This document shows, in pieces, positions 7,640 through 24,890 of a stretch of DNA of 28,087 nt. Under the pieces are notes generated by a model. The model searched no databases, was not told where the DNA came from, and worked only from the letters and a program-made list of their open reading frames with translations. Numbering within the stretch: position 1 is the first letter of the stretch; each line of letters starts with the position of its first letter. Made by a program: the position numbers and the translations under genes. Source of the DNA: a virus; IMG/VR virus record IMGVR_UViG_3300023223_000118, positions 1 to 28,087 of that record; one strand, 5' to 3'.

Positions 7640-8509
7640 TTATGTTTTGATTATGTACAACATTGCAACAAAAGCAGGTATATTAGTGTGTGAACAAATA
7701 GCTGATATAGGAGCAGATATTACACCACCTGTATTACTAGTAGCCGATGCTATATGGCAGGCACCACCAATAGTGGTTCCACAAGAAAGAGCGTCATGAA
7801 CTCCTCCATGAACGTGAGTTTGAACACCTGACTGATTCCCTGTTAAAGTAACAGCATCTACACCACCAGTACCACCGGGTTGACAACAAGCAGGTGCTCC
7901 TCTAGAGAATTTAGCTTGTAAATCTGGTAAACAAAAACAACAACACATTCCACCAAACTGAAATCCTATTACATCAAATAATCTTGCACATGTAGTTGTA
8001 CTTCTTGTTGAACCGTCAGCTAATAGCCATCCAGTAGGTATTGTGGTTAAAGTTCCACCAAACATAGTTATACTCCCAGTTGGAGAACCGTCAGTTATAG
8101 CCTCTAATTGTTTTAAAGTATTGTCTACAGAAGTAACAGTACTACAATTAGTTGTAGCAGATCCTATTACTTGTGCCTCACAGGGAGCACACCCAGTAGT
8201 ATTAGTAGCAAATGTAAAATTACATGGTCTACACATGGCATCCCTATTTAATTGAATATATACAAATGTAGTCATACATGCAGCTAAACATGTAACAGAA
8301 CATGTTATAGTATTCTCAACATATAATCCACATTGTCTACCTTTACCAGTTGCAATATTTGCGGCTAATATATTAGGACATTGTGCAGCTAAACAAAATC
8401 CAGTTACAATATAATCATTTATTATATCAGAAAAATAACTTTCAAAATCTGTAGATGATACAGTTTTGGCAGAACAACATGGGCCTCTTGGTATGAGTAC
8501 ACGGGTCAT
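7640..8509 (-). CDS. tail collar-domain protein, cysteine-rich
   Basis: About 289 aa, the last gene of the structural operon. A phage tail collar domain is clear: GSITMFGG, IPTGWLLADGS, ARLFDVIGFQFGG and CLPDL, then HVHGG, ending in a typical HTNIPAFVAMLYIIKT strand. Such proteins cap fibres or bind receptors. There are about 23 cysteines, including CCCFC just before LPDL, where relatives usually have a Gly/Ser/Thr loop and FNLPDL. I start at ATG 8509, which overlaps the upstream stop (ATGA), although GTG 8524 would add five residues. Likely exposed at the tail tip. Confidence 0.85.
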   Translation of the reverse strand: MTRVLIPRGPCCSAKTVSSTDFESYFSDIINDYIVTGFCLAAQCPNILAANIATGKGRQCGLYVENTITCSVTCLAACMTTFVYIQLNRDAMCRPCNFTFATNTTGCAPCEAQVIGSATTNCSTVTSVDNTLKQLEAITDGSPTGSITMFGGTLTTIPTGWLLADGSTRSTTTCARLFDVIGFQFGGMCCCFCLPDLQAKFSRGAPACCQPGGTGGVDAVTLTGNQSGVQTHVHGGVHDALSCGTTIGGACHIASATSNTGGVISAPISAICSHTNIPAFVAMLYIIKT

Positions 8510-9006
8510 AGACTCAACTGCCACTCTACAATGGCTCGTTTACTACTGTCTTTTACTAGTGGTGTACAATCTACTTGTCTTGCCCATAAGGCACCAGTTG
8601 GGGGATCACCATTACTATCTCCCAATCCCAGTTCATTCCATGTAAAGTTTGCACAAGAATATCCAAAATCAACTGATATAAATAGTGTAGGTCTAATGTA
8701 TACCTTACACCCTGTTGCTATAGTTTTCCATAATATCATACACCCAACTAAATTAGTCTGACATAATGCGGCGGGGGTACTACTATCACCAGCACCTATT
8801 TTTTGAGCAAATCCAGAATCAGTACAACAGGCAATTAATGGGCCGCCTAAATATTTTAATATACTATCCTTACCTACATTAACAATAAGGTTTTTAATAG
8901 TATGATCATGAACCATCACTTCTCCACCATTTTTTAATTTCTTCCATGCCCTAACTCTAACATGACCTTTTAATGGAATTACCTCTTCTCTAGAATTTAT
9001 GCCCAT
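8506..9006 (-). CDS. tail fibre-like structural protein, 166 aa
   Basis: Resembles small tail-tip or fibre proteins that begin with a short beta domain (VRVRAWKKLKNGGEVM) followed by NLIVNVGKDSILKYLGG, a GAGDSSTPA loop and a C-terminal NELGLGD...VEWQLSL beta part. The assignment rests on position and general pattern. It has about 7 cysteines, including ACC and a GC before a beta strand. A GAGGATG ribosome binding site lies about 10 nt upstream of the ATG, and the end overlaps the collar gene. Confidence 0.6.
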   Translation of the reverse strand: MGINSREEVIPLKGHVRVRAWKKLKNGGEVMVHDHTIKNLIVNVGKDSILKYLGGPLIACCTDSGFAQKIGAGDSSTPAALCQTNLVGCMILWKTIATGCKVYIRPTLFISVDFGYSCANFTWNELGLGDSNGDPPTGALWARQVDCTPLVKDSSKRAIVEWQLSL

Positions 9007-9392
9007 GCTATAACATCCTCTTCTTTTATATTTATATATTCATTTACCCCTTCATAATTATATGTAGTACCTGATAGATTAGTTTCTTTTCTTCCATTTT
9101 GTATTGAGTTTTCTTTTAATGGTACTATTTTCCCCCCGAATTTGTTAATAATTCTCATAACCTTTGGTTCATCTGAACTGGCAAATGCCACTTGAGCTAT
9201 GGTATTCCTATGAAATATTGGATGTTTTCTCCATGTTATATTTGATCTGATATATCTATAAGAACTATTTAATTGAGTACCTCTTGCAAATGCATCCCTT
9301 AATTCTTTCTGTGGAGTAAGACCAAAATCTATTGCCATCTTCTTCCAATTATTTTGATTAGAACTTACTCTTCTAGTATGATATTTACTCAT
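8997..9392 (-). CDS. cysteine-free tail-region protein, 131 aa
   Basis: A basic N-terminus (MSKYHTRRVSSNQNNWKK) is followed by a mixed alpha/beta region with FGGKIVPLKE. No domain is recognised. It has no cysteine, in sharp contrast to the genes on both sides, which suggests an internal, chaperone or connector role rather than an exposed one. It overlaps both neighbours and has GAGG about 10 nt upstream of the ATG. Confidence 0.65.
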   Translation of the reverse strand: MSKYHTRRVSSNQNNWKKMAIDFGLTPQKELRDAFARGTQLNSSYRYIRSNITWRKHPIFHRNTIAQVAFASSDEPKVMRIINKFGGKIVPLKENSIQNGRKETNLSGTTYNYEGVNEYINIKEEDVIAWA

Positions 9393-10027
9393 TTATTATA
9401 GGCCTCCATATATCTTATCCTTGAGTTTTTGGTTCCTGCTGCCCTTGAACGACCTTGAAATGCTGGTTGCATACGAACATCAGGTAGAAAAGTAGTTCTT
9501 GTTGCCTCTACTGTACCATTAACAGCCAATGTTACACAACATGCATCAACAATACATATTTTATAAGTAGTCCAACATGTATCTCTTGGTGTACATGTAG
9601 CTGTACTACCTTGACAACTTGCAGCAGTATTGGCAGTTGCTAATATTTTATTACAACCAGCTTCACCAGTATCATCTGTTGCTATTGCATATGCACAGTT
9701 ACCAGTAAATAAAGAACATCCTTCATTAAAACCAATTGCTGTTTGAGTATCAGTAGTAACTCTTCTAGTTACTGCAATCATAACTGCTGAATCATCACAA
9801 TAATGTCGTATTCCACAAAAATTAATAATACCTCTTTCTCCATTGAGATTAGTTAAAATCTCAAATCCCTCATCTATTGCGTCTACCATTTGAAATGTGG
9901 GAGTAGAAACATCACATTGTGTAGTCCATCTAGGATGTAGGGTATCCCCATCAAACCAACACCACATTCTAGTCTTACGTACAGTACAAAGAACATCAGT
10001 TACTTCATATACACTAGGAAAGGTCAT
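9389..10027 (-). CDS. fibre/adhesin-like protein A, cysteine-rich
   Basis: 212 aa, paralogous to the products of 10024-10659 and 11000-11686. The shared layout is a short N-terminal lead ending in a VRKTRMWCWFDGDTL-type strand, then MVDAIDEGFEI, INFCGIRHYCDDSAVMIAV, and a conserved close RIRYMEAYN. It looks like a concanavalin/lectin-like beta sandwich, but no exact family is recognised. There are about 14 cysteines (6-7%). C in INFCGIRHYC aligns with N in the third paralogue (MNFNGIQHYD). It has a GAGGCG ribosome binding site. Likely exposed and host-interacting by inference. Confidence 0.7.
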   Translation of the reverse strand: MTFPSVYEVTDVLCTVRKTRMWCWFDGDTLHPRWTTQCDVSTPTFQMVDAIDEGFEILTNLNGERGIINFCGIRHYCDDSAVMIAVTRRVTTDTQTAIGFNEGCSLFTGNCAYAIATDDTGEAGCNKILATANTAASCQGSTATCTPRDTCWTTYKICIVDACCVTLAVNGTVEATRTTFLPDVRMQPAFQGRSRAAGTKNSRIRYMEAYNK

Positions 10028-10985: not shown

Positions 10986-10999
10986 ATCATTCACCACCG

Positions 11000-11686
11000 C
11001 TAAGTATTATATACCTCCAAATATCTAATACGACCTTCTTTACCTGCTCCTCCACAACGATTAAAGATTCTGAATAAAGGGTTTTGTCCTACCGTTGGTA
11101 CTAGACCACACCTTGTCGCAGCAGAACAGGCACTACAATCAAAAAAAGCATCTATTGAAGTACACATATAATCTAATTTAACAGTCCTGAAGTTTGTACA
11201 AATAGCAACACATGTACAAATAACAGTATTACAAGTACCATCATCAACATTTAATATCCAACAAGTTTGAGCAGTATCATTAGATAACATTGCATACTGA
11301 GCAGCCCCACCTAATGAAGTGATAGAACTTAACCCAATTTGGGCAGCAGAGGCAGCACCTACTCTTTGTGCAACAGCAATGAAGCATAGACTATCTTCAT
11401 CATAATGTTGTATACCATTAAAATTCATATTAGATGAATTATTAGCAGTAGTTCCAGCAGTTATACTAAATCCTTGGTCTATACCATCTGACATAGCAAA
11501 TGTTCCAGTACCAGCACAGCATGTTTGATTCCAAATAGAAGATAAAGAAGTACCACTAAACCAACATACAAATCTTTGTTTTTGTACTGTAGTTAATGCC
11601 TGTTTAGCCTCATATATAGAAGCAAATGGGCAACAAGAAGGACAACATACTTCAAATCTAGATGGATTAATAACGTAATTACTCAT
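11000..11686 (-). CDS. fibre/adhesin-like protein C, cysteine-rich
   Basis: 228 aa, third member of the paralogous set. After a unique N-terminus (SNYVINPSRFEVCCPSCCPF) come KQRFVCWFSGTSL, MSDGIDQGFSITAG, MNFNGIQHYDEDSLCFIAV and the closing RIRYLEVYN. There are about 18 cysteines, nearly 8%, including two CC pairs in the N-terminal tail and CTC and CSAC clusters. It starts in an ATGA overlap. A lectin-like beta sandwich exposed at the tail tip is the likely reading. Confidence 0.7.
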   Translation of the reverse strand: MSNYVINPSRFEVCCPSCCPFASIYEAKQALTTVQKQRFVCWFSGTSLSSIWNQTCCAGTGTFAMSDGIDQGFSITAGTTANNSSNMNFNGIQHYDEDSLCFIAVAQRVGAASAAQIGLSSITSLGGAAQYAMLSNDTAQTCWILNVDDGTCNTVICTCVAICTNFRTVKLDYMCTSIDAFFDCSACSAATRCGLVPTVGQNPLFRIFNRCGGAGKEGRIRYLEVYNT

Positions 11687-12459
11687 GTTCTTGTACCTAT
11701 AATATATACCTTAAGTCCTGCACCTGCAACACAGCATCCAATTATATCTACATCAATGGTCATTTGTGCATCATCAGCCAATGAAGTATCTGATACAACT
11801 GGTGTCATACATGCGGTAGTAGATGTAAATTCTGTTGAATCAAATTCTATTTTACAACAAGCCATTATAGTAGTACCAGTTTCATGTATATCTACTGTTA
11901 ATATTGCAGCTCCTACTGGGGCTGTAGTTACACTACCTCTTACTGCTGACACTGTAAATGCATATGGCATACGGAATGTTACCTTTGCTGTTCCTGTAGT
12001 TAAGGCTGTAGTTTCATCTCCTACTGCTACAACGAATGATTCTGTTGGTTTTATTTCTGCAAAAGCAGGTGCTACACCAACACCACCTGATCTAAGAAAA
12101 TGTCCTACTGTTCCAACTGCTACTGTAGCAGCTACAGCCATACAATTCCATGTTATTAATTCTCCATCTGTGGCATTGGCTAAATTGGATACGACTAGAC
12201 ATCTATTAATTGTAAGGTTTGCATCTGGTACAGTTACAACTCTTGTAATACAGGCACATATACAAGGACATACATTAAATCTAATTCTCTTTGAAGTATC
12301 ACAGGCATCAGATACACTGAATATAGTATCTCTAACTAATACAGGACAACATCCAGTAATGGCTTTTCCATTGAAAAACTGCATTACTTTTAGTAAATCT
12401 GGGGCACCATAAATTACTGCTGTTCCGGGGCAACAATCAGTAGCTTCTTTAAACGCCAT
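11683..12459 (-). CDS. tail fibre-type structural protein, 258 aa
   Basis: The C-terminal half (about 155-258) matches a beta domain common in phage structural proteins: TGTAKVTFRMPYAFTVSAVRG, TTAPVGA, TVDIHETG, EFTSTTA, ISDTSLADDAQMTIDVD-like text and a closing GAGLKVYIIGTR. The N-terminal half is beta-rich and unassigned. About 16 cysteines include CPCICAC and IIGCCVAGAG, where relatives usually show Ser/Thr. It has both an upstream TATA box at 12481-12490 and a GAGGAG ribosome binding site, so it can begin its own transcript or be read through from the hub gene. Confidence 0.7.
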   Translation of the reverse strand: MAFKEATDCCPGTAVIYGAPDLLKVMQFFNGKAITGCCPVLVRDTIFSVSDACDTSKRIRFNVCPCICACITRVVTVPDANLTINRCLVVSNLANATDGELITWNCMAVAATVAVGTVGHFLRSGGVGVAPAFAEIKPTESFVVAVGDETTALTTGTAKVTFRMPYAFTVSAVRGSVTTAPVGAAILTVDIHETGTTIMACCKIEFDSTEFTSTTACMTPVVSDTSLADDAQMTIDVDIIGCCVAGAGLKVYIIGTRT

Positions 12460-12480
12460 ATATATATCTCCTCATTTGAA

Positions 12481-12490: not shown

Positions 12491-12491
12491 A

Positions 12492-15400
12492 TTATACATA
12501 TGCATCGTTCCCATCATAAGTTGTAGTACAACACATTTCATCGTAAACGGCATCAAACATTTCTGTTACACAAACTGTATCAGTAATTCCTAAACACTCT
12601 GTAAATGATGCATCATTATTTGCAACAGTTACTACATCACTCAATGCCAATAATTCTTCTGGGCCTTCAAAGTCTCTAAGATCTTTAATTGTAGAGATGG
12701 CACTTTCCAAATCATGTATCTTTCTGGCAATCTGTTTATCAAATTCAAAGTCGTCGAATGTATATTCTCCAACAGTTAATGTAGTTTTAAATTCAGGGTA
12801 TTCCCACTTGAGACTTTTAATTACAAATGTACTATCTATTTCTTTAATACTATTAATCACACGTATTACATCATTCTCTCTTAACGATGATAATAAAAAT
12901 GGGTGATCTATAATCAAATTCTTCCGTATATCATTATATCTATTAAGGTAACCATTCATAAAATTAAGACCATCAGATCTTGTTTGTATCCAAGATAACA
13001 CAAGTCTCTTTGCATGCACACCAAATTTATCTATACTTGATTGTGATTTACTTCTCATAAATAATGGTCGTTCAAATTCATATGCTACTAATATATTACA
13101 CATACCACAAGCAGGAGCACAGGCAAATGTTAATAATCTTCTTTGTGGATTAACTGCAAAGTCTACTTCTGCCAATAATTCTGTACCAACAGGATGTTCT
13201 ACTCTTGTTGATATTGCCGGTTCTGCCAAACAATATACAAAAGATGAACCATCACCGTCTAATAATTCTATTTTTTGATAACGTTTGTTTTCACCAAGTA
13301 CAGTTAAATCATTAACTAACTCAGTATCGTTAAACTTTGTTTCAAATACACTAGTATTACATCCATGTCTAAATACATTAGGTTTAATACTAAATTCTCT
13401 TAACACACAGAAGAATAATTTCTGGGCAGTAGTATAAAATGTGGCACCAAATAATGTAAGTAAATCATCTACTATATCAAACAGTTTTCCATCTGCAAAA
13501 TATTGTGTTATAGTTATACCAGATCTACCATTAAAAGGTACTGATATGAAATCTGTATTGTTTACTATTAAATCATGCACTATAAATTCCGGTGATCTAC
13601 AATTATATAATGTAGGTCTTACTTCTACTTCTGCCAGTGATTTACCAAATGATTGTGCCACTACTTTCTTTGCTGTTATCATTTTATTAATCTTAGTAGC
13701 TCTACCTCCAAATTTGTCTATACTTATGGGATTAATTACGTTAAATAAACTACATACTTCAGTATTAATAACAGTACCACCTGCATACCATCTAACTGAA
13801 TCTAAATTACCATCAAAGAAACAAGTTCTATTATTACATGTGGCAAATTCTAATGGAGTTTCTACTGTGGCATCAGTGGCATCAGTACAACTATCTTGTA
13901 ATACATTATCAACATATAGAGATATTAAATTACATGCATCTTTTCTTACTCTAAATTGATGATAACAACAATCTACCACATCAGTAGTTGAAGTTAATGT
14001 TGTACAGTTATGTCTATATGTAAGTGTACATAAACCTACGGCACCAGTAGTTGTAAATCCAGATGCAGTAAATCCACTAGATGTAAATCCCGGCCCTGCC
14101 GTTGTGGCACATTCTAATATTAACTCTATACCGTTACATGAGGCAGTAGATTTAGTAAACACTTTTCTATCACAACAATTCTGTGTTGCCTTTATCCATC
14201 CAACAATTTCATACTCACCAGTTAATTGTGAAAATGTACCATTATATAATGCCTTACCTGCAAATTCTGTTAGACAAGTATTCCAAAATCTTATACAATC
14301 CATTAACCCACAAAAATCACATGCTCCTGCATTACCTCCTCCAATAGATGCAGTAAGACAATTAGTTATAGTACTAGTTATTGCACATGCAGTAGTGCTA
14401 ACTGTTTCTACACCATCAATAATTAAACTCATACCAGCATTATCTCCTCCACCATCATAGACTGCCAACACATGATGCCATTCACAAGAAGGTAAACTAC
14501 ATGCTGCACCACTTACACTATATATACACGTACCATCTGATATTTGAAACACAGGTCTACAACATGTATTATCAAAATGTAAACTATATCCTCTAGATCC
14601 AGCAGTTAAATCAAGACGTTTTGAAAATATAATATCATTACCTGCTGCACACATACCAACATTTATCCACCCACCAAATGCAAATGGTAGAGTTTTAGCA
14701 AAACTAAAATCTGCGGAACAACATAAATTAATTCTAGTACAACCATTAAAACTAAAGGCCTTACAGTCAATTATAGATGCAACAAATGTAGTACATCCAG
14801 TAACAGTTCCACAATGACACCCATCTGTTCTATCATCTGTTACAACACACTCAAATTTATATTGTGCCACTAATGAACCAAATCTAGGATCTGGGGGAGC
14901 CTTATCTTCAACAGTAACATGACCAGCCACACCATCAAATTGTGCAGCATTACCCCATTTACCTTCTACATATGATATACTACCTCTATCATATATGGCC
15001 TTAACTTGTCCTACTGTTAATGTTTTATCTTTAAAGATATAAACATCATCCATTCTACCAGTATATTTACATCCTGCAACGGAAGAGGCACCAAGAGTTA
15101 CACTACAACAATTAATTACGGGAGTACCTATTACCATACATGTACCAGTAGTATCTAATAATCCATTGATATATAATTTCATTCCACTTCTATTACTTAA
15201 GGCATTAAATGTTGCTGCCACATGTGTCCACATACATAATGGTATAGTACACATGGATGTTATATTATTCTCTGTTACATTGGTTGCTATATCAAACTGT
15301 ATATTATTACAGGCGTTTATTTCTAAACTATAACCACCATCACATGTAAATGCATCTCTCTTTACAACTAACCCTTGATTTGCACATGCCACTGTAGGAT

Positions 15401-15881
15401 ATATCCATAATGCAATACTCCATTTTTGATCTTGTCTAAAATCAAACTTACATTCACACGGTATTATTAATGAAGAACATCCATTAAAACAGAATGCCTT
15501 ACATCCAACTTTACTACATGATGTATATACATTAGTTCCACAACCACAAATTACAGCAGTTAATGGAAGAGTTGCAGTACTAATATTACAACATCTATCA
15601 AATTCATATCTTATTAGGGCAGATGGTATATTAACTAAACCTGCACCATGATGTTCGTATCCACTTTCATCACCTGTATGACAATCAAATGTCCACATAC
15701 CTTTAAGATTAGTTAAGTCAACTATGTCTTGTATATAGTGTAGATCATTATCTACTTCAACATTAATAGTATGTGGTATAGTAAAACATGCCTGATCTAT
15801 TGCCCTACATCCTTGTTTTGTTACAATTGATTTAACTAATTGTTTTTGGGCGCCATTAATAAAGAATTTTGCTCTAGCCAT
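12492..15881 (-). CDS. baseplate hub/tail protein with inserted LamG domains
   Basis: 1129 aa. Residues 1-60 (FINGAQKQLVKSIVTKQG, then YIQDIVDL) and about 718-1129 (a beta-rich region with SIDKFG twice, FIVHDLIV and FEFDKQIARK) look like one hub or Tal-type protein. Between them sit a LamG domain (about 65-305, with MWTHVAATF and MKLYING), a second (about 335-550, with CEWHHVLAVYDGG), and a third, weaker one (about 555-710) containing a GFTSSGFTASGFTTTG repeat. There are about 66 cysteines, some 55 of them in the LamG region. It follows the distal tail gene, as expected for a hub. The LamG insertions probably bind host surface glycans (inference). Confidence 0.75.
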   Translation of the reverse strand: MARAKFFINGAQKQLVKSIVTKQGCRAIDQACFTIPHTINVEVDNDLHYIQDIVDLTNLKGMWTFDCHTGDESGYEHHGAGLVNIPSALIRYEFDRCCNISTATLPLTAVICGCGTNVYTSCSKVGCKAFCFNGCSSLIIPCECKFDFRQDQKWSIALWIYPTVACANQGLVVKRDAFTCDGGYSLEINACNNIQFDIATNVTENNITSMCTIPLCMWTHVAATFNALSNRSGMKLYINGLLDTTGTCMVIGTPVINCCSVTLGASSVAGCKYTGRMDDVYIFKDKTLTVGQVKAIYDRGSISYVEGKWGNAAQFDGVAGHVTVEDKAPPDPRFGSLVAQYKFECVVTDDRTDGCHCGTVTGCTTFVASIIDCKAFSFNGCTRINLCCSADFSFAKTLPFAFGGWINVGMCAAGNDIIFSKRLDLTAGSRGYSLHFDNTCCRPVFQISDGTCIYSVSGAACSLPSCEWHHVLAVYDGGGDNAGMSLIIDGVETVSTTACAITSTITNCLTASIGGGNAGACDFCGLMDCIRFWNTCLTEFAGKALYNGTFSQLTGEYEIVGWIKATQNCCDRKVFTKSTASCNGIELILECATTAGPGFTSSGFTASGFTTTGAVGLCTLTYRHNCTTLTSTTDVVDCCYHQFRVRKDACNLISLYVDNVLQDSCTDATDATVETPLEFATCNNRTCFFDGNLDSVRWYAGGTVINTEVCSLFNVINPISIDKFGGRATKINKMITAKKVVAQSFGKSLAEVEVRPTLYNCRSPEFIVHDLIVNNTDFISVPFNGRSGITITQYFADGKLFDIVDDLLTLFGATFYTTAQKLFFCVLREFSIKPNVFRHGCNTSVFETKFNDTELVNDLTVLGENKRYQKIELLDGDGSSFVYCLAEPAISTRVEHPVGTELLAEVDFAVNPQRRLLTFACAPACGMCNILVAYEFERPLFMRSKSQSSIDKFGVHAKRLVLSWIQTRSDGLNFMNGYLNRYNDIRKNLIIDHPFLLSSLRENDVIRVINSIKEIDSTFVIKSLKWEYPEFKTTLTVGEYTFDDFEFDKQIARKIHDLESAISTIKDLRDFEGPEELLALSDVVTVANNDASFTECLGITDTVCVTEMFDAVYDEMCCTTTYDGNDAYV

Positions 15882-15886: not shown

Positions 15887-16543
15887 TCACGGACATGTTT
15901 CTGCTGGCTGACAACTTTCATCAACTGTTAATAATCTTTCTCCAACTACCATAGATAAGTTTGCAGTATATGTAACAGGAGTTGCCGATGATTTACTTAC
16001 AACTAATTTACTAAGTTTTGCATGACGTCTAAATTCTGAAGATGAGTTAAATGCTGTGTTAGATTGAGCATCTGTAATTACTGGCATACAGGCACCGGGA
16101 GCAACACATAATTGCATACACATATTATCGTCTTGATAATCACTATCACCTACAAAGAAATCCCATTCATGGTTAATTCCTCTATTCTCCATAGTATTAA
16201 ATAAGAAATCTATTTGTGAACATACTGTTAATACCGGGCCTTCTCTACCACAATTACCATCTAATTCGTCTACCATAGTAACAATATTACCTGTCTCATT
16301 AATTATTGTCCATGATACGTTCATAGTTTGTGCATTACCCTGTGTCTTAATAACAAATGTACATTCTGCTCCCTGTTGTGGTAATCTAATAATATCTATT
16401 GGAGTATCTAAGTCAATACTAAAAGATGCCAAGTTAGGTATATGATATGTTAGGTTTGGATAGGCAGCAGGAGTTAAACACATACCTTGAAACTTTACTG
16501 TATTACAACAACGACTACGCCATCTTAATATAAAATCAGACAT
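15887..16543 (-). CDS. probable distal tail protein (Dit-like), 218 aa
   Basis: Called by position, directly between tape measure and hub, and by an N-terminus (MSDFILRWRS) leading into a beta-rich body consistent with a Dit-type ring protein. No diagnostic motif was found. It has about 13 cysteines, many in pairs or near ends (RCCN, NMCMQLC, ETCP). The ATG follows the tape measure stop directly (TAGATG), with GAGGAAT upstream. An alternative is another tail-tip ring protein. Confidence 0.55.
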   Translation of the reverse strand: MSDFILRWRSRCCNTVKFQGMCLTPAAYPNLTYHIPNLASFSIDLDTPIDIIRLPQQGAECTFVIKTQGNAQTMNVSWTIINETGNIVTMVDELDGNCGREGPVLTVCSQIDFLFNTMENRGINHEWDFFVGDSDYQDDNMCMQLCVAPGACMPVITDAQSNTAFNSSSEFRRHAKLSKLVVSKSSATPVTYTANLSMVVGERLLTVDESCQPAETCP

Positions 16544-18325
16544 CTACGTTATTCCTCTATTAGATTTTAATTCGTTTAACCATCTGAATACCATTGGTTT
16601 TACCATTGTTTCAAATTGGTCGGGGTTAACACCAGTAATATGAAAGTGTGCAACAAAACTATCTCCTCCACCACTACCACCAATTCCGGGAGTTACTGTC
16701 TCGGCACCTTGTTCACCTAACATGTATGGTCTTCCACTACGTAAACCTCTACCAACTACAGGTTCATTTATAACCCCTCCTTGTGCTAATGAAAATCCAC
16801 CTATACCTCTTAACACTCCTGCCATTTGACTATCTCCCATACCTGCTAACATTTTTAATGTATCATCATCTAATTGTGACATTTCATTATTTCTATATAA
16901 TTTTTGATATGCACCTTCACCTAATGCAGCGTTATACTGTATTATGGCATTAATTGTTGATCTATATTTTGCAATGGCTTTTCCTCTATCACCTGTATCT
17001 ATAATACCTGATTGAAATCCACCTTCGGGAGTTAATAAATCAGTACCCTGTGATAAAATCTGTTGTGCCAATTTTGCAGATGAAGAAGTTTCTCCACTTG
17101 ATTTCTTACTTGCTGCTAATGCCCTAAGTCTGGAAATGATATTTTCTTCTGCCTGTTTAAATATATCGGCAATATTTATTATGGCATCACTGGCAGATAT
17201 ACCTGCGTTACGTGCTGCTATATATCTACGTGCAATTTGTATCATCATATTTTTAGCTGGATCTGCTCCTTGTGATAATGATTCTTCTGCCAAATCTTTT
17301 ATGGCCCCGAATTTTGCACTCATATCTATCATGTTTAATGTTGATTGTTCTGCTGATTCTAGTTGTTTCTGTTCTTCTTTATCTTTTTTATCTAGATTTG
17401 CAAAATTTTCAATAGTAGCTGGGTCATTTTCACCTAGAAATTTCTCCATCCATTTCTTTTTATATTCGTCTGGATCATTTATTAAATCTATATCTTCTTG
17501 TGTTGGGGGATTATCTATAGCATGTTGTTCCCAAGGACGTATATCAGTCTTAGTTGCTTCATCTCTTGCATCCTCTTGTGCCTGTTCTATTTTTTCTTCA
17601 TCAGTTGGCTCATCTTTTCTTCTATAACCAACAAACATAGGTAATGGAACCTTAAAGTCAAATATATCAGCAACCCATGTCAATAACATATCTCCTATTC
17701 CTTGTCTTATTGCACCAGTCAAAGGATTACCTCCTCCTGCAAATACGGTTGTTAACCACTTACCAAGGTCAAATTCACCTTCTTCATTGGTACCTGTTAA
17801 TCTCTCTGTAAACGTACCTACTGCTGCTAATGCATTGGCACCACCAAATAATTTATAGAAATGAATGGCATGCTTTAACATTAAGATAAGGAATGGTCTA
17901 AGTAAGAATCCAATAAAATCTCCAAATGGTCTTAAGAATAAAGTGAAGGCCGTGTTACCTATCTTTGCCATGGCCTGTAACAATGGAGATGAATCTATTA
18001 GGGCAGTTCCTATTTGTCTTAAGGCTGCTAACCCCATAGTGATACCTGCCAACTTCATTATACTAGGGCCGAACTTTCCCATCCAACCTTTCTTTTGTGT
18101 ACGCTCTGACATCTCTGCTTTTTTAACTTGTAGTTCTAATAGCTTATGCATTTTATCAAACATTTTTTGATTTTGTCCGGGAGTGAATCCTGCTCCTCCC
18201 ATTCCACCAGAAGCTCCTCCACCACCAGTAAATAATTTACCCATATTTACTTTACCTAATGCGGCCTGTAATTGTGTTCTTAGTTGAGAAGGATCTACTT
18301 GGACTTTAAGAGTATACTCTGCCAT
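16544..18325 (-). CDS. tape measure protein
   Basis: 593 aa. It has the typical order: a short N-terminal helix (MAEYTLKVQVDPSQLRTQLQ), a Gly-rich linker (TGGGGASGGMGGAG), a long hydrophobic segment (about 90-175, with MKLAGITMGLAALRQIG and FGDFIGFLLRPFLILMLK) that may insert in membranes, then long charged helices and a Gly-rich C-terminus with a QGADPAKN helix region. A tape measure of this length suggests a rather short siphovirus-like tail (inference). There are no cysteines, unlike the surrounding exposed proteins. It lies directly after the frameshift extension of the chaperone, as in lambda-type operons. Confidence 0.9.
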   Translation of the reverse strand: MAEYTLKVQVDPSQLRTQLQAALGKVNMGKLFTGGGGASGGMGGAGFTPGQNQKMFDKMHKLLELQVKKAEMSERTQKKGWMGKFGPSIMKLAGITMGLAALRQIGTALIDSSPLLQAMAKIGNTAFTLFLRPFGDFIGFLLRPFLILMLKHAIHFYKLFGGANALAAVGTFTERLTGTNEEGEFDLGKWLTTVFAGGGNPLTGAIRQGIGDMLLTWVADIFDFKVPLPMFVGYRRKDEPTDEEKIEQAQEDARDEATKTDIRPWEQHAIDNPPTQEDIDLINDPDEYKKKWMEKFLGENDPATIENFANLDKKDKEEQKQLESAEQSTLNMIDMSAKFGAIKDLAEESLSQGADPAKNMMIQIARRYIAARNAGISASDAIINIADIFKQAEENIISRLRALAASKKSSGETSSSAKLAQQILSQGTDLLTPEGGFQSGIIDTGDRGKAIAKYRSTINAIIQYNAALGEGAYQKLYRNNEMSQLDDDTLKMLAGMGDSQMAGVLRGIGGFSLAQGGVINEPVVGRGLRSGRPYMLGEQGAETVTPGIGGSGGGDSFVAHFHITGVNPDQFETMVKPMVFRWLNELKSNRGIT

Positions 18326-18342: not shown

Positions 18343-18812
18343 TTAACCTATTTTAATTTTCTGGGAACGTATTAAATCTGAGATGTTTTTGAGCCAGTGG
18401 ACGGGCTGTTTGTCGGTTTGCTCTTTATCCCATCCGAAGGTTGCGGCGCAGAAGGCATAGATTCCGAAATAAATTGTGTCAGATTCTCCGAACCTAGCAA
18501 TGTTTTCATCCATCCCTCTAAAAAAATGCCCATTGCATAGTCGTCCATCACATGATCAATGAGTGTTACAACAGTCCTTCCGGGTAGTTCATATATTTTT
18601 TTAATTATATGGAAGTCAAATGGTGCCTTTGTAATTACCTTTTGTAATACGGCCATTTGATAATCTGGTATATTTACTTTACTTTGCATTGGATTACTGG
18701 CATCTACATTGTTTCTTAAAATCGGGGCAATAATACCATATTCAACATCTGATTCATATTCTACGATTTCTTTCTTACCTTTATAATCTATTTCAAAAGT
18801 CTTTAATACCAT
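18343..18812 (-). CDS. tail assembly chaperone long form by -1 frameshift (GT-like)
   Basis: If ribosomes slip at T TTT TTA (18525-18519), 98 residues of the chaperone are joined to a 58-residue -1 extension, giving about 156 aa. The extension begins RGMDENIARFGESD and contains GIYAFCAATFGWDK, PVHWLKNISDLIRS and a basic end; it stops at 18343, 18 nt before the tape measure ATG. In lambda, G and GT are made this way and GT recruits the tape measure. The 0-frame tail over the same DNA is Pro/Ser/Thr-rich and low in complexity, so the -1 frame looks like the constrained one. Expression is inferred, not shown. Confidence 0.75.
18372..18812 (-). CDS. tail assembly chaperone, short form (G-like)
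   Basis: 146 aa. Residues 1-95 form a compact domain (MVLKTFEIDYKGKKEIVEYE, then LPGRTVVTLIDHVMDDYAMG), followed by a disordered Pro/Ser/Thr tail (PSAPQPSDGIKSKPTNSPST). It lies between the tail tube and tape measure genes, the standard site for chaperones such as lambda G. It has no cysteines in this frame. It has its own TATA box at 18831-18841. GC is clearly higher over the last 150 nt, where two frames overlap. Confidence 0.75.
   Translation of the reverse strand: MVLKTFEIDYKGKKEIVEYESDVEYGIIAPILRNNVDASNPMQSKVNIPDYQMAVLQKVITKAPFDFHIIKKIYELPGRTVVTLIDHVMDDYAMGIFLEGWMKTLLGSENLTQFISESMPSAPQPSDGIKSKPTNSPSTGSKTSQI
18519..18525 (-). promoter_or_regulatory. slippery heptamer T TTT TTA
   Basis: On the minus strand the chaperone reads ATG GGC ATT TTT TTA GAG. 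The run of seven T followed by A gives the canonical X XXY YYZ heptamer in the correct frame for -1 slippage. No obvious downstream pseudoknot was found by eye. Confidence 0.8.
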
Positions 18813-18844: not shown

Positions 18845-19876
18845 CTATGGCTCTGCTGAGTTAGCATTGATGGCACTAACTACGGCACTTCTAGCTTGCC
18901 AATTAAGTGTTTCAAATATAGGTTCAACTGGTTCTGCGGCAGTATTATGATCTCTTAATAGAATACCAGTAAATGCAAATGTAATTGTTCTGGCTGCGGC
19001 CCCTGCACCACCGTTAGTTAATACTATAGTTAGTGTTGGATCTTCACGGGCAAATGTCGCACAGTTATCTTCAATCTGAGCATATATTTTATCAAGTTGA
19101 CTATAATCAATCCACGGTGCCTGAAATGAGCCAGTCATTTCAAATACTTTACGGTATGCTGAACTGGCATGATTACAACCATGAGCAAACAAAAGGTCTG
19201 CATTTTGGTTAAGTGATATATCAAATGATTGTAGTTCTGCTATAGTTACACAACAACAACTGTTACATACTGTTAATGCTCCATGAGCAAATGTATATGG
19301 TTCAAACTGACATGCGGCTCTACCAACAGTTTCGCTTGTTGGACTTACATCAGCGATTGCACTACTAGTCTCTGTGGCATATGCTATATCGGCTGTTGCC
19401 CTAACTGGTTCTCCTATTGAACTTCTTAATGTAATAGAATTTGCTATTGCTCCTCCTATAGTTCTTACGGTATCCATACATGCAACTTGTTGTTCAACAC
19501 CTACTTCTATAGACATTGATTCTACGGTCTTAGTACAAGTTGATGCAGTACTACACCAAGTATACGTAAATGGTGCTGGGCATCCTGATGGGAATAAACA
19601 GGCCATACAATTTCTATCAAATATAGTTGACAGGAACCAAGGATTGCTAACAACATAATCTAAACTTAAAGAACCTCTGGCCTGACCATAGGCATATGTC
19701 TTAACTTCTACACTACCTAATTGATTTAATATAATTGGAGAATTTGTCCAAGTCCATCCAGATACCTTTTGTTCTAGTCCCCATACCTTATTTCTACAGG
19801 AAACACATGTGGCTTCATCAAAATTTGTCTCAAAATCATATTGGACATATGCATACGCACCAGTCTGAACTACCAT
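18845..19876 (-). CDS. major tail tube protein, 343 aa
   Basis: The N-terminus reads GAYAYVQYDFETNFDE and is followed by a beta-rich tube-type body (SVEVKTYAYGQARGSLSLDY, FEPYTFAHGALTV, FDISLNQNADLLFA, FEMTGSF). Length, beta content and position upstream of the chaperone fit a tail tube monomer that polymerises around the tape measure. About 15 cysteines occur, including NSCCCV and RNCMAC. Conserved-looking strands are mostly free of them. It has its own CTTTATAAA promoter. Confidence 0.8.
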   Translation of the reverse strand: MVVQTGAYAYVQYDFETNFDEATCVSCRNKVWGLEQKVSGWTWTNSPIILNQLGSVEVKTYAYGQARGSLSLDYVVSNPWFLSTIFDRNCMACLFPSGCPAPFTYTWCSTASTCTKTVESMSIEVGVEQQVACMDTVRTIGGAIANSITLRSSIGEPVRATADIAYATETSSAIADVSPTSETVGRAACQFEPYTFAHGALTVCNSCCCVTIAELQSFDISLNQNADLLFAHGCNHASSAYRKVFEMTGSFQAPWIDYSQLDKIYAQIEDNCATFAREDPTLTIVLTNGGAGAAARTITFAFTGILLRDHNTAAEPVEPIFETLNWQARSAVVSAINANSAEP

Positions 19877-19907: not shown

Positions 19908-19908
19908 T

Positions 19909-20355
19909 TTATACAAAAGTAAAGGAGTTCACATCTCTATATTTTACGGTTAAAACTGTTCTATATTTATTCCTCATCTCTGAACTCATATCTTCTGATC
20001 CAATAATTATCACATCTAAGAATCCCTCTGTACCTCTTCTAATTATATTCTTTAATGTATTTGATACAGTTTTAATTATATTATTATGGTTCTCTAATCC
20101 CTTATAGGATCTTACATCTACCTTTAACACTAATTCATGCCAATGTGCATCTCCATGTAATTGAAATGGTCTTATAGATTCTGGCATAGGAGTAATATAT
20201 ACTCTAGCTCTAGTACCTCCTCCAAATCCTGCACTTTTAACATCCCATATAATTTGAATATCAGGTTTCGGGGCACTATTAATTTTATTTTTATTCCAAT
20301 CTGTAGCCATCACACTTTTTAAATCATTCACTACATCATAAGTAATTACGGTCAT
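19909..20355 (-). CDS. tail terminator/completion protein, 148 aa
   Basis: A helix-first alpha/beta protein (VVNDLKSVMATDWNK, then PDIQIIWDVKS and WHELVLKVDVR) ending in long strands. The order adaptor, gp10-like, this gene, tail tube matches the tail terminator position in siphoviruses. It has no cysteine. It starts in an ATGA overlap with the previous gene, with a GGTGA ribosome binding site. Confidence 0.7.
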   Translation of the reverse strand: MTVITYDVVNDLKSVMATDWNKNKINSAPKPDIQIIWDVKSAGFGGGTRARVYITPMPESIRPFQLHGDAHWHELVLKVDVRSYKGLENHNNIIKTVSNTLKNIIRRGTEGFLDVIIIGSEDMSSEMRNKYRTVLTVKYRDVNSFTFV

Positions 20356-20855
20356 AATTTTTCACCTGTTATTTTAGAAGTTATATAATCTGCAAATGGT
20401 AATGGTGAATCACCAGCAAATATAATATCTTTAAATGACATTTCTGGAATACCTACACCTGATTCCCATCTTGATAATACGGCATCAACATACCATATAG
20501 GATCTATTCCCTTATCTTTTATTTTTTTTGCAACTCTCCATGCAATACCATTAATTTCACTATCAGACATATTTACATTCTTTCCACCATCTTTAGTATT
20601 TCTTACCCAATCTCTAATGTTATCTATATTTGGCATTGTACCGGGTATCATACCCTGATTGATTGTAGCTGGTGCCCATTTAGTACTACCGACTACGGCA
20701 TCATCTTTATACCATTTAATATCATCTGCGGCACCATCATAGTGTTTTTTAATTTGTTGTATCTCTTTTTGTAGATCATCTAATAGATCAAATCCTATGT
20801 CTTCCATAAGCTTCTCCTTAAACATTTCCCAATCTCCATCTAGTATTTTAAACAT
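20352..20855 (-). CDS. HK97 gp10-like head-tail joining protein
   Basis: 167 aa. It shows the usual pattern of the family: an N-terminal helix bundle, a GSTKWAPATINQGMIPGTMP loop, a DWVRNTK helix, and RVAKKIKDKGIDPIWYVDA followed by an amphipathic C-terminus. Such proteins form the neck or tail-completion ring between adaptor and tail. It contains no cysteine. The ATG abuts the previous stop (TAGATG), and it overlaps the tail terminator gene. Confidence 0.75.
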   Translation of the reverse strand: MFKILDGDWEMFKEKLMEDIGFDLLDDLQKEIQQIKKHYDGAADDIKWYKDDAVVGSTKWAPATINQGMIPGTMPNIDNIRDWVRNTKDGGKNVNMSDSEINGIAWRVAKKIKDKGIDPIWYVDAVLSRWESGVGIPEMSFKDIIFAGDSPLPFADYITSKITGEKL

Positions 20856-21509
20856 CTATGTGGTAATTACGTATATCTCCTCTCTATTACGTATTATTCT
20901 ATCGACATCTGATTGCCATCTGTTAACAATTTTATCTATATCTAATTGATTTTCTGCACCTAATGGTAATTGATCCATACGGAAGGATGATGTTAAGAAT
21001 TCTATTGCCGTCAACTTTACGGCAGCCTCTTCTATATCTTCTGGTATTGGAATTGATAGTGGACAATCTCCCGGTTCTCCTCCATATCTATATGTAAATC
21101 TTAATCTGTTTTTTCTCATTACACTAAACAAAAATCCTCTGAAATATATTTCTCCTCTTTCTGGAATTTGTTCATATCTACCACCTATTTGATCTGTAAC
21201 ATCACTGAAACTTCCAGATGTACCACCCCATATTTCTATTTTATCACCTGCACAAGCATCTAAAGATTGTGCCATTCTATGATGTAATGAAACTAATGTA
21301 CCCCATCCAAAATTATAAATCAAAGGCATATCATGATATTCATGAGTTATTGTTCTTAATCTCCAAGCATGACCTGTTCTACGGTCAATCTTATCTTGTG
21401 CCCTTTCAATTAATTTTACTACTTGATCATCATTTGGTACGGTTGTTGCACATATAGGTATTCTTAAGAAATCTGCAATGTCTTCAACTGAGGCATATGT
21501 AGCTACCAT
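20856..21509 (-). CDS. head-tail connector/adaptor protein
   Basis: 217 aa from ATG 21509, chosen because GAGGAG lies about 8 nt upstream and the ATG overlaps the previous stop (TAATG); the longer frame to 21572 is unlikely. The opening ATYASVEDIADFLRIP and LIERAQDKIDRRTGHAWR is characteristic of phage gp6-type adaptors: a short helical DNA-packaging domain, then a beta insertion and a C-terminal helical region (AAVKLTAIEFLTSSFR). It joins portal to neck. It has three cysteines only. Confidence 0.8.
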   Translation of the reverse strand: MVATYASVEDIADFLRIPICATTVPNDDQVVKLIERAQDKIDRRTGHAWRLRTITHEYHDMPLIYNFGWGTLVSLHHRMAQSLDACAGDKIEIWGGTSGSFSDVTDQIGGRYEQIPERGEIYFRGFLFSVMRKNRLRFTYRYGGEPGDCPLSIPIPEDIEEAAVKLTAIEFLTSSFRMDQLPLGAENQLDIDKIVNRWQSDVDRIIRNREEIYVITT

Positions 21510-21874
21510 TAGAAACTCTCCTCTACGGTAAACCCGAATGAACCAGACTGATCTGATACAACACACATACAATCAAGATATTCTACTTCTCCTTCCCATA
21601 TACCTGCTTCACAAATAGTATTAACATCACATGCTCCCAAGGTATAAGTAATTACTCCCCCGGCTCTACATGAATATACTATTGCCCCACAAAATAATGA
21701 AACTCCACTAGGCCTCCATACTTTCCAAGTACCAGTATTAAATGTACAGACACATGCCATATTTACTGCACATCCTGTATCTGGACAGTTTAATGTTAAA
21801 GTTAATGTTTTTCTAGAACCTACTTTTACGGTATAGTTTACATCATGTCTTTTCATATTGATAGACCCGGCCAT
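21509..21874 (-). CDS. Ig-like/BppU-type structural protein, 121 aa
   Basis: A single beta-sandwich: HDVNYTVKVGSRKTLTLTLN, TGTWKVWRPSG, GVITYTLGA, GIWEGEVEYLD, and SDQSGSFGFTVEESF. This pattern resembles the Ig-like N-terminal domain of baseplate upper proteins and related capsid or tail decorations. About 10 cysteines fall in loops (CPDTGCAVNMACVC, LDCMCV). It lies among head genes, so it may be a head decoration. Start at ATG within TTATATATGG. Confidence 0.65.
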   Translation of the reverse strand: MAGSINMKRHDVNYTVKVGSRKTLTLTLNCPDTGCAVNMACVCTFNTGTWKVWRPSGVSLFCGAIVYSCRAGGVITYTLGACDVNTICEAGIWEGEVEYLDCMCVVSDQSGSFGFTVEESF

Positions 21875-21888
21875 ATATAATACTATAT

Positions 21889-22770
21889 TTACTGCGTTCT
21901 ATTTATTGATTTAGAAACATCTTTACTTGATGTGGTGTTAGAAGCATCTCCTATAGATATAGAATTAGAAACATCTTTACTTGATATAATATTAGAATTA
22001 TCTCCTCTAGATATAGTTCTTGTAATGTCTTCACTAGAAACGAATTTAGTTGGGGCACAAGAAGGTGGAAAATCAAAAGGTAAATCTACATACTTTATTC
22101 CCGATCCCACATTATATAATCTAAGTATATCACATGAAGTTAATTCTATACTCCATATATTTACCTCATCAATATCACCGCATATTGGTCTAGTTAATGT
22201 CTCCCCTGCTCCTATTGACACTTGCCTATTATTTACTCCACCTGTATAAGTACCTGATGTAACAATACACATTCCTACTATTCCATCAACATACAGAGTT
22301 GAACAGGCTGGTGCCGTACTAGCTGGTTTAGTTAAGGCTACATGGTGCCAACATCCATCAAATACACCTGTCATACATATTCTAATTGAACCTATTCCAA
22401 AACATGAATTCTTCATACCAAATTCTATTCTGCAACATCCTGTTAACCTATTTCCAAAATACCACCCGGCATCAAGAGAACCTAATTGAGTAGATTTTCC
22501 TATTATAAATTGCTCACCATCTACAGAACTTTTAACCCATGCCGACATACTAAAGGCATTAGCTGGACTAATTATATCAAAATTACATTCATTCGCTAAA
22601 AGTATTACACTACATCCATCAAAACGTGCCGCCATACATGTACACATTGGAGTACAGTTTGTATATGTTTCTGTACCTGTCCAAGTTCCATTATTACAGG
22701 CAAAACAATCAGTGGCAACTCCCTCTAATCCAATCCACGATATTAACATACAGTCAGTAAGACACGCCAT
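21889..22770 (-). CDS. LamG-domain structural protein with C-terminal repeats
   Basis: 293 aa. Residues about 10-225 are a LamG/concanavalin domain (LISWIGLEG, NNGTWTGTETYT, AARFDGCS, WHHVALTKPA, STLYVDGIVG, DEVNIWSIEL), a fold used to bind glycans. Residues 245-293 are 18-residue repeats (SSEDITRTISRGDNSNII type). There are 19 cysteines, including CTC and GCCRIEF, at loop sites that are usually Ser, Asn or Asp. It lies between decoration genes and the adaptor, so a head fibre or decoration is plausible. It has its own TATA box and TTATATATGG start. Confidence 0.75.
   Translation of the reverse strand: MACLTDCMLISWIGLEGVATDCFACNNGTWTGTETYTNCTPMCTCMAARFDGCSVILLANECNFDIISPANAFSMSAWVKSSVDGEQFIIGKSTQLGSLDAGWYFGNRLTGCCRIEFGMKNSCFGIGSIRICMTGVFDGCWHHVALTKPASTAPACSTLYVDGIVGMCIVTSGTYTGGVNNRQVSIGAGETLTRPICGDIDEVNIWSIELTSCDILRLYNVGSGIKYVDLPFDFPPSCAPTKFVSSEDITRTISRGDNSNIISSKDVSNSISIGDASNTTSSKDVSKSINRTQ
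21892..22038 (-). repeat. 54-bp tandem repeat in the LamG gene
   Basis: Two full copies and one partial copy of an in-frame 54-bp unit encode SSEDITRTISRGDNSNII, SSKDVSNSISIGDASNTT and SSKDVSKSINRTQ. The copies diverge at nucleotide level but share the SSKDV and GDxSN blocks. Confidence 0.75.
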
Positions 22771-22793
22771 ATATAATGAATTATATCTATTGT

Positions 22794-22803
22794 CTTAAAT
22801 ATA
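22794..22803 (-). promoter_or_regulatory. TATA box for the LamG gene
   Basis: The minus strand reads TATATTTAAG, about 25-30 nt before the ATG at 22770, at the end of the upstream gene. The start context is ATTCATTATATATGG. Confidence 0.55.
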
Positions 22804-23085
22804 TTATTCGAAAACTATAACTATTGTACCAACCGTGCCGGCACCAATATCAACAAAAATACCACAATTCATAGGTTTATTGATGTAGGGCATACTTATT
22901 TCACCACTGGTGGCTCCAACTAAATCAACAGTCATTACGGCAGTTCCACAAGCATCTACTCCATTTCTTATAACCCAATCTCTATCACCTGTTTGAGATG
23001 TATAAATTGACTTCAGAATCGAATGACCTGTTTTAACAAGAACGTCACACATACCGACTTCGACTATATTATTCTTATCGCCCAT
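22804..23085 (-). CDS. small structural protein, 93 aa
   Basis: A beta-rich small protein (GMCDVLVKTGHSILKSIYTS, then ISMPYINKP and TVGTIVIVFE). No family is recognised. It sits between head genes with its own TATA box and a TTATATATATGG start, so it is probably an independently expressed capsid or decoration component. It has three cysteines. Confidence 0.65.
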   Translation of the reverse strand: MGDKNNIVEVGMCDVLVKTGHSILKSIYTSQTGDRDWVIRNGVDACGTAVMTVDLVGATSGEISMPYINKPMNCGIFVDIGAGTVGTIVIVFE

Positions 23086-23109
23086 ATATATAATGAATAA
23101 TGCTATTGA

Positions 23110-23118
23110 TTAATAAAG
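23110..23118 (-). promoter_or_regulatory. TATA box for the 93-aa gene
   Basis: The minus strand reads CTTTATTAA about 28-32 nt before the ATG at 23085. Confidence 0.65.
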
Positions 23119-23127
23119 TTTATAATT

Positions 23128-23529
23128 TTAGAATCCAGTTACGTGAAATCTATGAGTTGAACATTGAACATCTGCGGCACAAGCTGGTATTTCATCTAAA
23201 GGTGTAGCGACTACTGCTCCTGTTTCAAAGAAATGAAGTGTTCCTGTAGCTGCGGCATCACAGGCTGCAAATCTATATTCTACTGCATATCCATCTATGT
23301 TACATGCTCCATCGGAATGATTTCCAACTTGAACAGTTAATAAAGTAGTAATTCTTCCACCTGCTGATAAGTCAACTGCGTACCCTGCGGCACATGCTGG
23401 ATAAGCACAGGCTCCAATGGCAAAGCAAATAACTGCTTCTTTAATTCTACTAGTTAAAACCGATTGTTTACTCAGAGTCTTTCCAGTTATACTTTGGAAA
23501 TTTGAGTTCACTGTTGATACAAGTGCCAT
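23128..23529 (-). CDS. probable capsid decoration protein, 133 aa
   Basis: The gene directly downstream of the major capsid gene. An N-terminal helical lead (STVNSNFQSITGKTLSKQS) is followed by a strand-rich body with ICFAIGACAYPACAAG and RITTLLTVQVGNHSD. About 9 cysteines in 133 residues, one of the densest. The position suggests a decoration or minor capsid protein; no fold is recognised. It has a CTTTATAAA promoter just after the capsid terminator, so it is transcribed separately. Confidence 0.6.
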   Translation of the reverse strand: MALVSTVNSNFQSITGKTLSKQSVLTSRIKEAVICFAIGACAYPACAAGYAVDLSAGGRITTLLTVQVGNHSDGACNIDGYAVEYRFAACDAAATGTLHFFETGAVVATPLDEIPACAADVQCSTHRFHVTGF

Positions 23530-23550
23530 ATAGATATAGGTTATCGTTTT

Positions 23551-23561
23551 GGTTTATAAAG
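23551..23561 (-). promoter_or_regulatory. TATA box for the decoration gene
   Basis: The minus strand reads CTTTATAAACC, about 26-31 nt before the ATG at 23529, and 16 nt beyond the T-tract of the capsid terminator. Confidence 0.7.
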
Positions 23562-23576
23562 ATTGTGTGTGGTAAT

Positions 23577-23607
23577 AAAAAAACTCTTCAAACCCATCTT
23601 CAAAGAG
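23577..23607 (-). terminator. stem-loop plus T-tract terminator behind the capsid gene
   Basis: On the minus strand a 9-bp stem (CTCTTTGAA pairing with TTTGAAGAG, two G-T wobbles) closes a GATGGG loop at 23607-23584 and is followed at once by seven T (23583-23577). It lies 36 nt after the capsid stop codon and just before the next promoter. Confidence 0.75.
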
Positions 23608-23642
23608 GCTAGTTTTCAAATGCTGAGATAGTACTATAGATT

Positions 23643-24890
23643 CTATAGGCTAATATCTCGGATCTTACCTTGCGACCTAAAGTGTCGACAAACGGTTTGA
23701 CCCATTGTCCTAAAGAGTCCTTCTTCTGCAAATCTACCAGTGATATAAGGATATCCCGGTGTACGTCTTGTTGCTTCATAGTATTCAGTTGGTATGTTTA
23801 TCATGATACCCAATCTTGGATAACCATATCCTTCTGCATCAGATGTATCTAATGCAAATAGTCTTCCAATCTCATTGGCGTCACAAGCATTGCTTGGTGC
23901 GTCTTTGGATGGAATGAATGGAACTCCATAAATAGAGTCTACATGAATACCTACTCCGGTTCCCTTGAATGTTTGGATTCCGTTTACGTCAATCTGTACT
24001 AGGGCTTCGCCATATGGGTTCGCAATACGAACACTTGGCATGTACAATCCTTGAACTTCGGAATAAACTTCGTGTGAACCGAGGAATACGTTTGGATCTT
24101 TGCCTGCTTGTACTCTGATTGTTCTTAAGAATGTTCTTAAGGTATCATCAGTTAGTACGCCATTTGTACCAATAGTTCCACTTGGGGAAATAACGGTTGT
24201 ATCAAATGCGGCACTTACAGCGTCTCTATCTATTACAGTTGTGTCAGGTGTCCATGGATCATAGAAGCCAGAGCCTCCTCCACCAGTTACATCTTCCTCT
24301 GCATCAGATGAAACAATTCTATCAAGTGTTTCCCAATCGTCAGTACCTAGATAAGCACAGCAACATGCGGCTGCTTCTGCTTCTACGTCTGCGAGTAACA
24401 TTCTATTAAGTAGTTCTTTATGTTGAACTGCTCCGAACAATCGTAGTGAACCTAGTCCACCCCATATGTCGTCTTTAGAATGTGTTGCTAACCATTCCAT
24501 TACTTCTGAAACGGCTATTGGATATTGTACTGTTCTTGGTTTAATATCTATTTCTGCAAATGTTGGAAGTACTGCGTCGGCAATAATTCCGCCTTCTGGG
24601 GTACCACCTAATACGGTGACACAACAGTTCATGCAACAAAAGTCAATACTATCTGCTTTGGCGGTAATAACCCTCCATCCAGATTTATCCCAAGGATACT
24701 TTGGTAGAATACCAAATGCGTTTGCTTCAAGATTAAGCTGTGCCCATGCATATGCGCCAAATACGGCGTTAAATGTACCAGTTGTACAAGTTTGCAATCG
24801 TGCATCAGCTTTTTGTAGGAAGTTTCTATTCCATCCGTAGTGAAGTGCCTCTAACTCATCAATTGTGGTGAGTTGATATGGGTTTACCAT
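23643..24890 (-). CDS. major capsid protein, HK97-fold
   Basis: 415 aa, in the protease-scaffold-capsid order. The N-terminus reads MVNPYQLTTIDELEALHYGW. Central text includes WRVITAKADSID, VLGGTPEGG, IADAVLPTFAEIDIKPRTVQYPIAVSEVMEWL (spine-helix and P-domain-like) and a C-terminal YGVPFIPSKDAP...IPTEYYEATRRTPGYPYITGRF. About 10 cysteines form small clusters (DFCCMNCC around 84-90 and AACCCAYLG around 175). GC content and codons are richer than in most neighbours, as expected for a very highly expressed gene. It starts at ATG in an overlap with the scaffold, with a GAGGT ribosome binding site. Confidence 0.9.
   Translation of the reverse strand: MVNPYQLTTIDELEALHYGWNRNFLQKADARLQTCTTGTFNAVFGAYAWAQLNLEANAFGILPKYPWDKSGWRVITAKADSIDFCCMNCCVTVLGGTPEGGIIADAVLPTFAEIDIKPRTVQYPIAVSEVMEWLATHSKDDIWGGLGSLRLFGAVQHKELLNRMLLADVEAEAAACCCAYLGTDDWETLDRIVSSDAEEDVTGGGGSGFYDPWTPDTTVIDRDAVSAAFDTTVISPSGTIGTNGVLTDDTLRTFLRTIRVQAGKDPNVFLGSHEVYSEVQGLYMPSVRIANPYGEALVQIDVNGIQTFKGTGVGIHVDSIYGVPFIPSKDAPSNACDANEIGRLFALDTSDAEGYGYPRLGIMINIPTEYYEATRRTPGYPYITGRFAEEGLFRTMGQTVCRHFRSQGKIRDISL

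Follow-up and report, generated by a model that had tools for sequence, protein, structure and literature searches.

Cysteine sites turn over rapidly in the outward-facing virion proteins of an archaeal tailed virus lineage

The window analyzed here is the whole of a 28,087-base virus record, which may be a fragment of a larger genome. It encodes a terminase large subunit (TerL) matching phrog_2, an HK97-type major capsid protein (MCP) matching phrog_24667, a tail tube with a Phage_tube_2 domain, and a tape measure module, as found in Caudoviricetes. The closest match to its TerL is in Halogranum tailed virus HGTV-1 (30%), and that to its MCP is in HCTV-1 (25% identical); the lineage is one of archaeal tailed viruses. 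The genes that bear on the analysis are as follows.

2865..4265, minus strand: TerL, 1 Cys in 466 aa (phrog_2, E 2e-46); 5-8 Cys in most distant relatives
7640..8524, minus strand: collar-domain fibre protein, 23 Cys in 294 aa (7.8%; Pfam Collar, E 2e-11)
8506..9006, minus strand: tail-tip/fibre protein, 7 Cys in 166 aa; 5 in 167 in relative L012
9389..10027, minus strand: fibre paralogue, 14 Cys in 212 aa; 3-5 Cys in relatives L026 and L028
10024..10659, minus strand: fibre paralogue, 12 Cys in 211 aa
11000..11686, minus strand: fibre paralogue, 18 Cys in 228 aa (7.9%)
11683..12459, minus strand: fibre protein, 16 Cys in 258 aa; part-homologue in L011 with 4 in 641
12492..15881, minus strand: tail hub with inserted LamG domains, 66 Cys in 1129 aa (Pfam Laminin_G_3, E 8e-39); 1 in 673 in L011, of clade C
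15887..16543, minus strand: distal tail-type protein, 11 Cys in 218 aa; L011 homologue 0 in 274
16544..18325, minus strand: tape measure, 0 Cys in 593 aa (internal contrast)
18372..18812, minus strand: tail assembly chaperone, 0 Cys (internal contrast)
18845..19876, minus strand: tail tube, 15 Cys in 343 aa (Pfam Phage_tube_2, E 2e-10); L011 orthologue 0 in 330
19909..20355, minus strand: tail terminator, 0 Cys
20352..20855, minus strand: gp10-like connector, 0 Cys
20856..21509, minus strand: head-tail adaptor (phrog_17057/442), 3 Cys in about 217 aa from the probable start; L002 orthologue 217 aa
21509..21874, minus strand: Ig-like beta-sandwich virion protein, 10 Cys in 121 aa; 0 Cys in 14 relatives, some of them near-copies
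21889..22770, minus strand: LamG protein, 19 Cys in 293 aa (Pfam Laminin_G_3, E 1e-13)
22804..23085, minus strand: small virion protein, 3 Cys in 93 aa; enlarged in L002 (774 aa, 61 Cys)
23128..23529, minus strand: decoration-like protein, 7 Cys in 133 aa; L011 orthologue 0 in 130
23643..24890, minus strand: MCP, 10 Cys in 415 aa (phrog_24667, E 1.5e-21)
24884..25528, minus strand: scaffold, 0 Cys (internal contrast)

The true start of the adaptor is probably at MVATYASVEDI rather than at the mechanical ORF start (20856-21572), which lowers its Cys count from 5 to 3. Fourteen outward virion proteins, so classed by homology and gene order rather than by structure, contain 231 Cys in 4114 residues (5.6%, counted from the translations), against 29 in 4217 (0.7%) for the remaining genes tested. 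Heterogeneity across 34 genes gives a chi2 of 204, where the maximum in 10,000 permutations was 71. The protein at 21509-21874 has the highest fraction (10/121, 8.3%), and 55 of the 66 hub Cys fall in residues 1-720, the LamG region, with 11 in the rest. A sequence-only reading of the window had proposed that exposed proteins are rich in Cys and internal ones poor, and the translations reproduce that split. Its figures agree with ours for the collar/fibre protein (23, in 294 aa), two fibres (14/212 and 18/228), the LamG protein (19/293), the tube (15/343), and the first 720 residues of the hub (55), as does its report that Cys is absent from the tape measure, chaperone, scaffold, terminator, gp10-like protein, and the genes at 8997 and 10659, with a single Cys in TerL. 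For the decoration-like protein it gave 9/133, where 7 are present; its other counts are right, and four further rich proteins were missed (21509-21874, 11683-12459, 15887-16543, and MCP). In-frame TGY codons reach 5.6% in the rich genes and 0.7% in the others, and the other reading frames lack such a contrast. A contrast confined to the coding frame indicates selection on the protein, and codon or base bias, already discounted in the sequence-only reading, is thereby ruled out. Reassignment of the TGY codon was also rejected, since the residues found opposite Cys sites are diverse (S, T, D, A, G, and others).

About 110 related records were gathered by scans with MCP and TerL. Clades were drawn from the MCP tree, taken without a known root and thus without a direction of Cys change. 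Virion Cys is almost absent in clade C, the large group that holds most relatives, intermediate in clade B (MCP 2-8 Cys), and extreme in clade A, which comprises the window, L002, L033, and L034 (MCP 10-13 Cys). The virion genes of clade C are nearly Cys-free (tube 0-4, hub 0-4, decoration 0-1, MCP 1-2). L003 and L012 (TerL 80% identical) are Cys-rich to a lesser degree (hub 36/883, tube 9/343). Compared with Cys-poor orthologues, the window has 15 vs 0 Cys in the tube, 7 vs 0 in the decoration-like protein, 10 vs 1 in MCP, and 10 vs 0 in the 21509 gene. An equal Cys content in the tape measure and chaperone of homologous viruses, which the earlier reading had named as evidence against its proposal, was not seen: the internal genes of relatives are Cys-poor (0.5-0.7% for internal proteins in clades A and B), and the virion genes of clade C lack the Cys. 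Scaffold, chaperone, and tape measure are almost Cys-free in clade C too, so the absence of Cys from these contrast proteins is not by itself avoidance. Cys-rich fibres were also sought in unrelated viruses with a fibre-motif scan, and the only hits were clade B contigs that were already known. In L002, a Cys-bearing repeat module of about 110 residues is inserted in two virion genes whose window counterparts are short (L002:3652-5976 and L002:6846-7547).

The hosts may be ammonia-oxidising archaea, as suggested by an amoC-like gene in one of 16 relatives (G006:C1:37549-38139; AmoC match E 1.5e-15, with one stop inside). MCM and Rad51 in G010, a long clade B relative, also underlie this assignment, and two genome scans for a provirus gave no match. 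The relatives are probably marine, judging by published work on their MCP group, in which the HVTV-1 MCP was grouped with MCPs of marine archaeal viruses (PMC8651126), rather than by sample records; a search of papers by IMG number found no sample metadata. Among the relatives, L013 is a 9 kb contig whose two divergent sets of TerL/4484/TGT-like genes face opposite ways, either a chimera or a real duplication. By eye, the clade C virus L006 encodes a flavoprotein resembling tryptophan halogenase (L006:3220-4548) and a protein that bears the metalloprotease motif HExxHxxGxxH (L006:8621-9406).

The outward proteins gain or lose Cys together. Across records, the Cys fraction of MCP correlates with that of the tube (rho 0.77), hub (0.83), collar (0.84), adaptor (0.83), decoration (0.64), 15887 gene (0.90), and 8506 gene (0.93), in comparisons made without phylogenetic correction over few clades with near-copies included, for which p-values are descriptive. 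For tube, hub, and decoration, the correlation persists among MCPs with at least 3 Cys. No correlation across records was seen between MCP and scaffold, chaperone, or gp10, and Cys in tape measure and terminator rises slightly between clades while staying low. Cys in TerL and the TGT-like protein runs opposite to that in MCP (-0.75 and -0.84, n = 11). TerL has 6-8 Cys in clade C vs 1-4 in clades A and B, and the TGT-like protein likewise has fewer where virion proteins are richer. The latter gene is short (window 5994-6743, phrog_887), is kept in relatives, and may be linked to 7-deazaguanine DNA modification.

Within proteins, the extra Cys occupy permissive positions. In MCP they lie nearly all in variable loops (window residues ~78-93, 168-184, and 200-212) or at residue 336, as do 8 of the 10 in the window; C401 is invariant, and a few further sites are scattered at 35, 110, 196, 231, 234, 281, and 406, with some at 214-230. 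Where window Cys align to Cys-poor homologues, the partner is mostly S, T, D, A, or G and never aromatic, and 40% align to gaps, vs a background of 21%. Structural mapping is weak, with a single usable small model, that of the 21509 protein (pLDDT 72), and an MCP model at pLDDT 30 that is unusable; the former folds as an Ig-like beta sandwich, places most Cys in loops, and matches Ig-like folds of phage baseplate, tail, and connector proteins. Strict co-occurrence of loop-1 Cys with Cys336 was not seen in MCP, and this loose co-occurrence disfavours, without settling, an HK97-like cross-link between the two. Even Cys counts are not favoured, 7 of the 14 rich proteins being odd. Neither CxC (16 vs 13.2 expected in the window) nor CxxC (12 vs 13.1) is in excess, clade B likewise shows no enrichment, and His is no commoner than expected near Cys. 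An excess of CC is confined to the window. Met adjoins Cys more often than expected in the window (MC 14 vs 5.5, CM 15 vs 5.5), a feature of clade A that is absent in clade B.

The main new result is the lability of outward Cys sites. Turnover, defined as Cys lost or gained per occurrence, was measured in orthologue pairs 80-97.5% identical. In 67 independent pairs of outward proteins, it is 65/359 (0.181), the highest of all residues and 2.24 times that of the mean residue (95% bootstrap 1.6-2.9). In 73 pairs of internal or enzyme proteins, it is 13/363 (0.036), or 0.41 times the mean residue (0.21-0.66), and the two classes differ (Fisher 1e-10). MCP pairs that are 88-96% identical show 2-6 Cys sites among 18-48 differences.

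The virus-wide surface excess of Cys sits in permissive sites, which site hardly matters, and the outward proteins move together. Given labile sites, random parity, and no excess of CxC or CxxC, these data point to selection for bulk surface thiol rather than for fixed bonds or metal motifs, and site-independent selection of this kind is the probable reading of the sequences. What such selection would serve is a more tentative matter, and we suggest stapling with some reserve. Flexible Cys-bearing loops on symmetric neighbouring subunits would cross-link redundantly once an oxidant or soft metal ions are encountered by the virions. Capsid, tail, and fibres would then be stapled in a position-degenerate way, such that no single pair needs conserving; scaffold, chaperone, and tape measure, which have to slide or come away, are Cys-free. 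The whole mechanism, bulk selection together with redundant surface stapling whose chemistry we infer, has somewhat less than an even chance of being correct. We consider it an even bet that these viruses carry a “thiol coat”, a site-independent Cys load over the whole exterior (with adjoining Met in clade A) whose level is determined by the chemistry of host or habitat, adjusts fast in a dozen genes at once, and involves no fixed bond or metal site. The thiols may be bonded, metal-loaded, or free, and no thioredoxin, Erv, or Dsb-like protein was found by Pfam in the ORFs scanned of G010. Of the earlier reading, which suggested disulfide- or metal-cross-linked armour, the split between exposed and internal proteins is borne out; a fixed disulfide armour is not supported, Cys being the fastest-changing residue and even counts not being favoured, and CxC/CxxC spacing of the metal type is not enriched.

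An unlikely, though the least unlikely, alternative is a soft-metal shell, where exposed thiols, joined in clade A by adjacent Met, would take up Cu(I), Zn, or Fe to protect the virion, bridge subunits, or exploit host metal uptake. Ammonia oxidisers are copper-dependent, and such hosts, suggested by the amoC-like match in one relative, would suit this model, as would the Met directly beside Cys in the window and the metallothionein-like ORFs, small and acidic with CxC/CxxC, of two clade B records. These ORFs are L117:5734-6414 (G010; 39 Cys in 226 aa) and L098:528-719 and 722-985 (13 Cys in 63 aa and 13 in 87 aa). However, the Met enrichment is absent in clade B, the sites are labile, and the virion proteins lack the CxC/CxxC enrichment and nearby His typical of metallothioneins or zinc fingers. 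The Ferrojan-horse hypothesis, as discussed in PMC11705849, also posits exterior metal binding, with tail-bound iron in fibre sites of marine phages; the window lineage differs in bearing Cys over its whole exterior with no metal motifs.

Attachment through surface thiols or mixed disulfides, which would stick virions to host surface proteins or particles, is improbable. The highest Cys contents include those of the fibres and LamG domains, but tube, MCP, decoration, and neck proteins rise alongside the fibres, and receptor binding needs none of these.

Slightly less probable still is a fixed, site-specific disulfide network of the kind solved for Agrobacterium phage Milano, whose structural proteins have 2.1-2.4% Cys vs 1.4% for the remaining proteome (PMC10491603, PMC10811340). 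Like the window, Milano, 7-7-1, and OLIVR4 have Cys-enriched capsid, neck, tail, and baseplate proteins and a tape measure without Cys, and the enrichment of structural proteins over the rest also holds in the window (5.6% vs 0.7%), where the mean of the 14 proteins exceeds the Milano values. The Milano group belongs to another virus lineage and another host domain. Milano Cys are conserved and mostly bonded, whereas those of the window lineage are the fastest of all residues to turn over. Structural proteins of Milano and 7-7-1 (omitting the Milano MCP, which had no match), compared in like manner as a positive control, gave a Cys turnover of 0.039 at 76% identity, the lowest of all residues. 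The lack of an even-number bias also argues against a fixed network. Intracellular disulfides are described for hyperthermophilic archaeal viruses (Menon 2008, cited in PMC4187194; PMC3177088). Those viruses share with the window lineage an unusual use of Cys, but the viral proteins reported to have disulfides there include intracellular ones, while here the intracellular proteins are Cys-poor and even counts are not favoured. Druskaviridae (HCTV-1/HVTV-1) and marine thaumarchaeal and MGII viruses (PMC8651126) are related to the window through MCP; HCTV-1 has 1 Cys in 460 residues of MCP and 0 in 620 of tape measure, and only clades A and B are enriched in Cys.

Non-adaptive drift, in which Cys does no harm in loops and a mutation or translation bias raises its count, would account for permissive, labile sites, but we regard it as a poor candidate. 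The excess is found in frame only and in outward proteins only, the enzymes TerL and TGT-like change in the opposite direction, and 100 of 117 unshared Cys codons between the window and L002/L012 differ by 2-3 bases. It is highly improbable that Cys anchors a bulk S-linked modification, glycan or lipid: position independence and a presumed surface location fit, but no candidate modifying enzyme was identified, and avoidance of N-glycosylation, itself rejected as an explanation, gave no clear signal, with sequons not specifically avoided beyond composition.

Cys is normally rare, with conserved positions, but this lineage has much of it, at mobile sites and in step across many unrelated structural genes. 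Other phages are known to have disulfide cages that are fixed, unlike the shifting outward sites seen here. A chemical pressure on virions may in this way become legible in sequence, and Cys-rich, intermediate, and Cys-free relatives of the same virus allow comparison. Should stapling or metal loading prove true, it would be a new way of making virions robust without exact bond geometry, and would mark the redox or metal conditions that these archaeal viruses meet.
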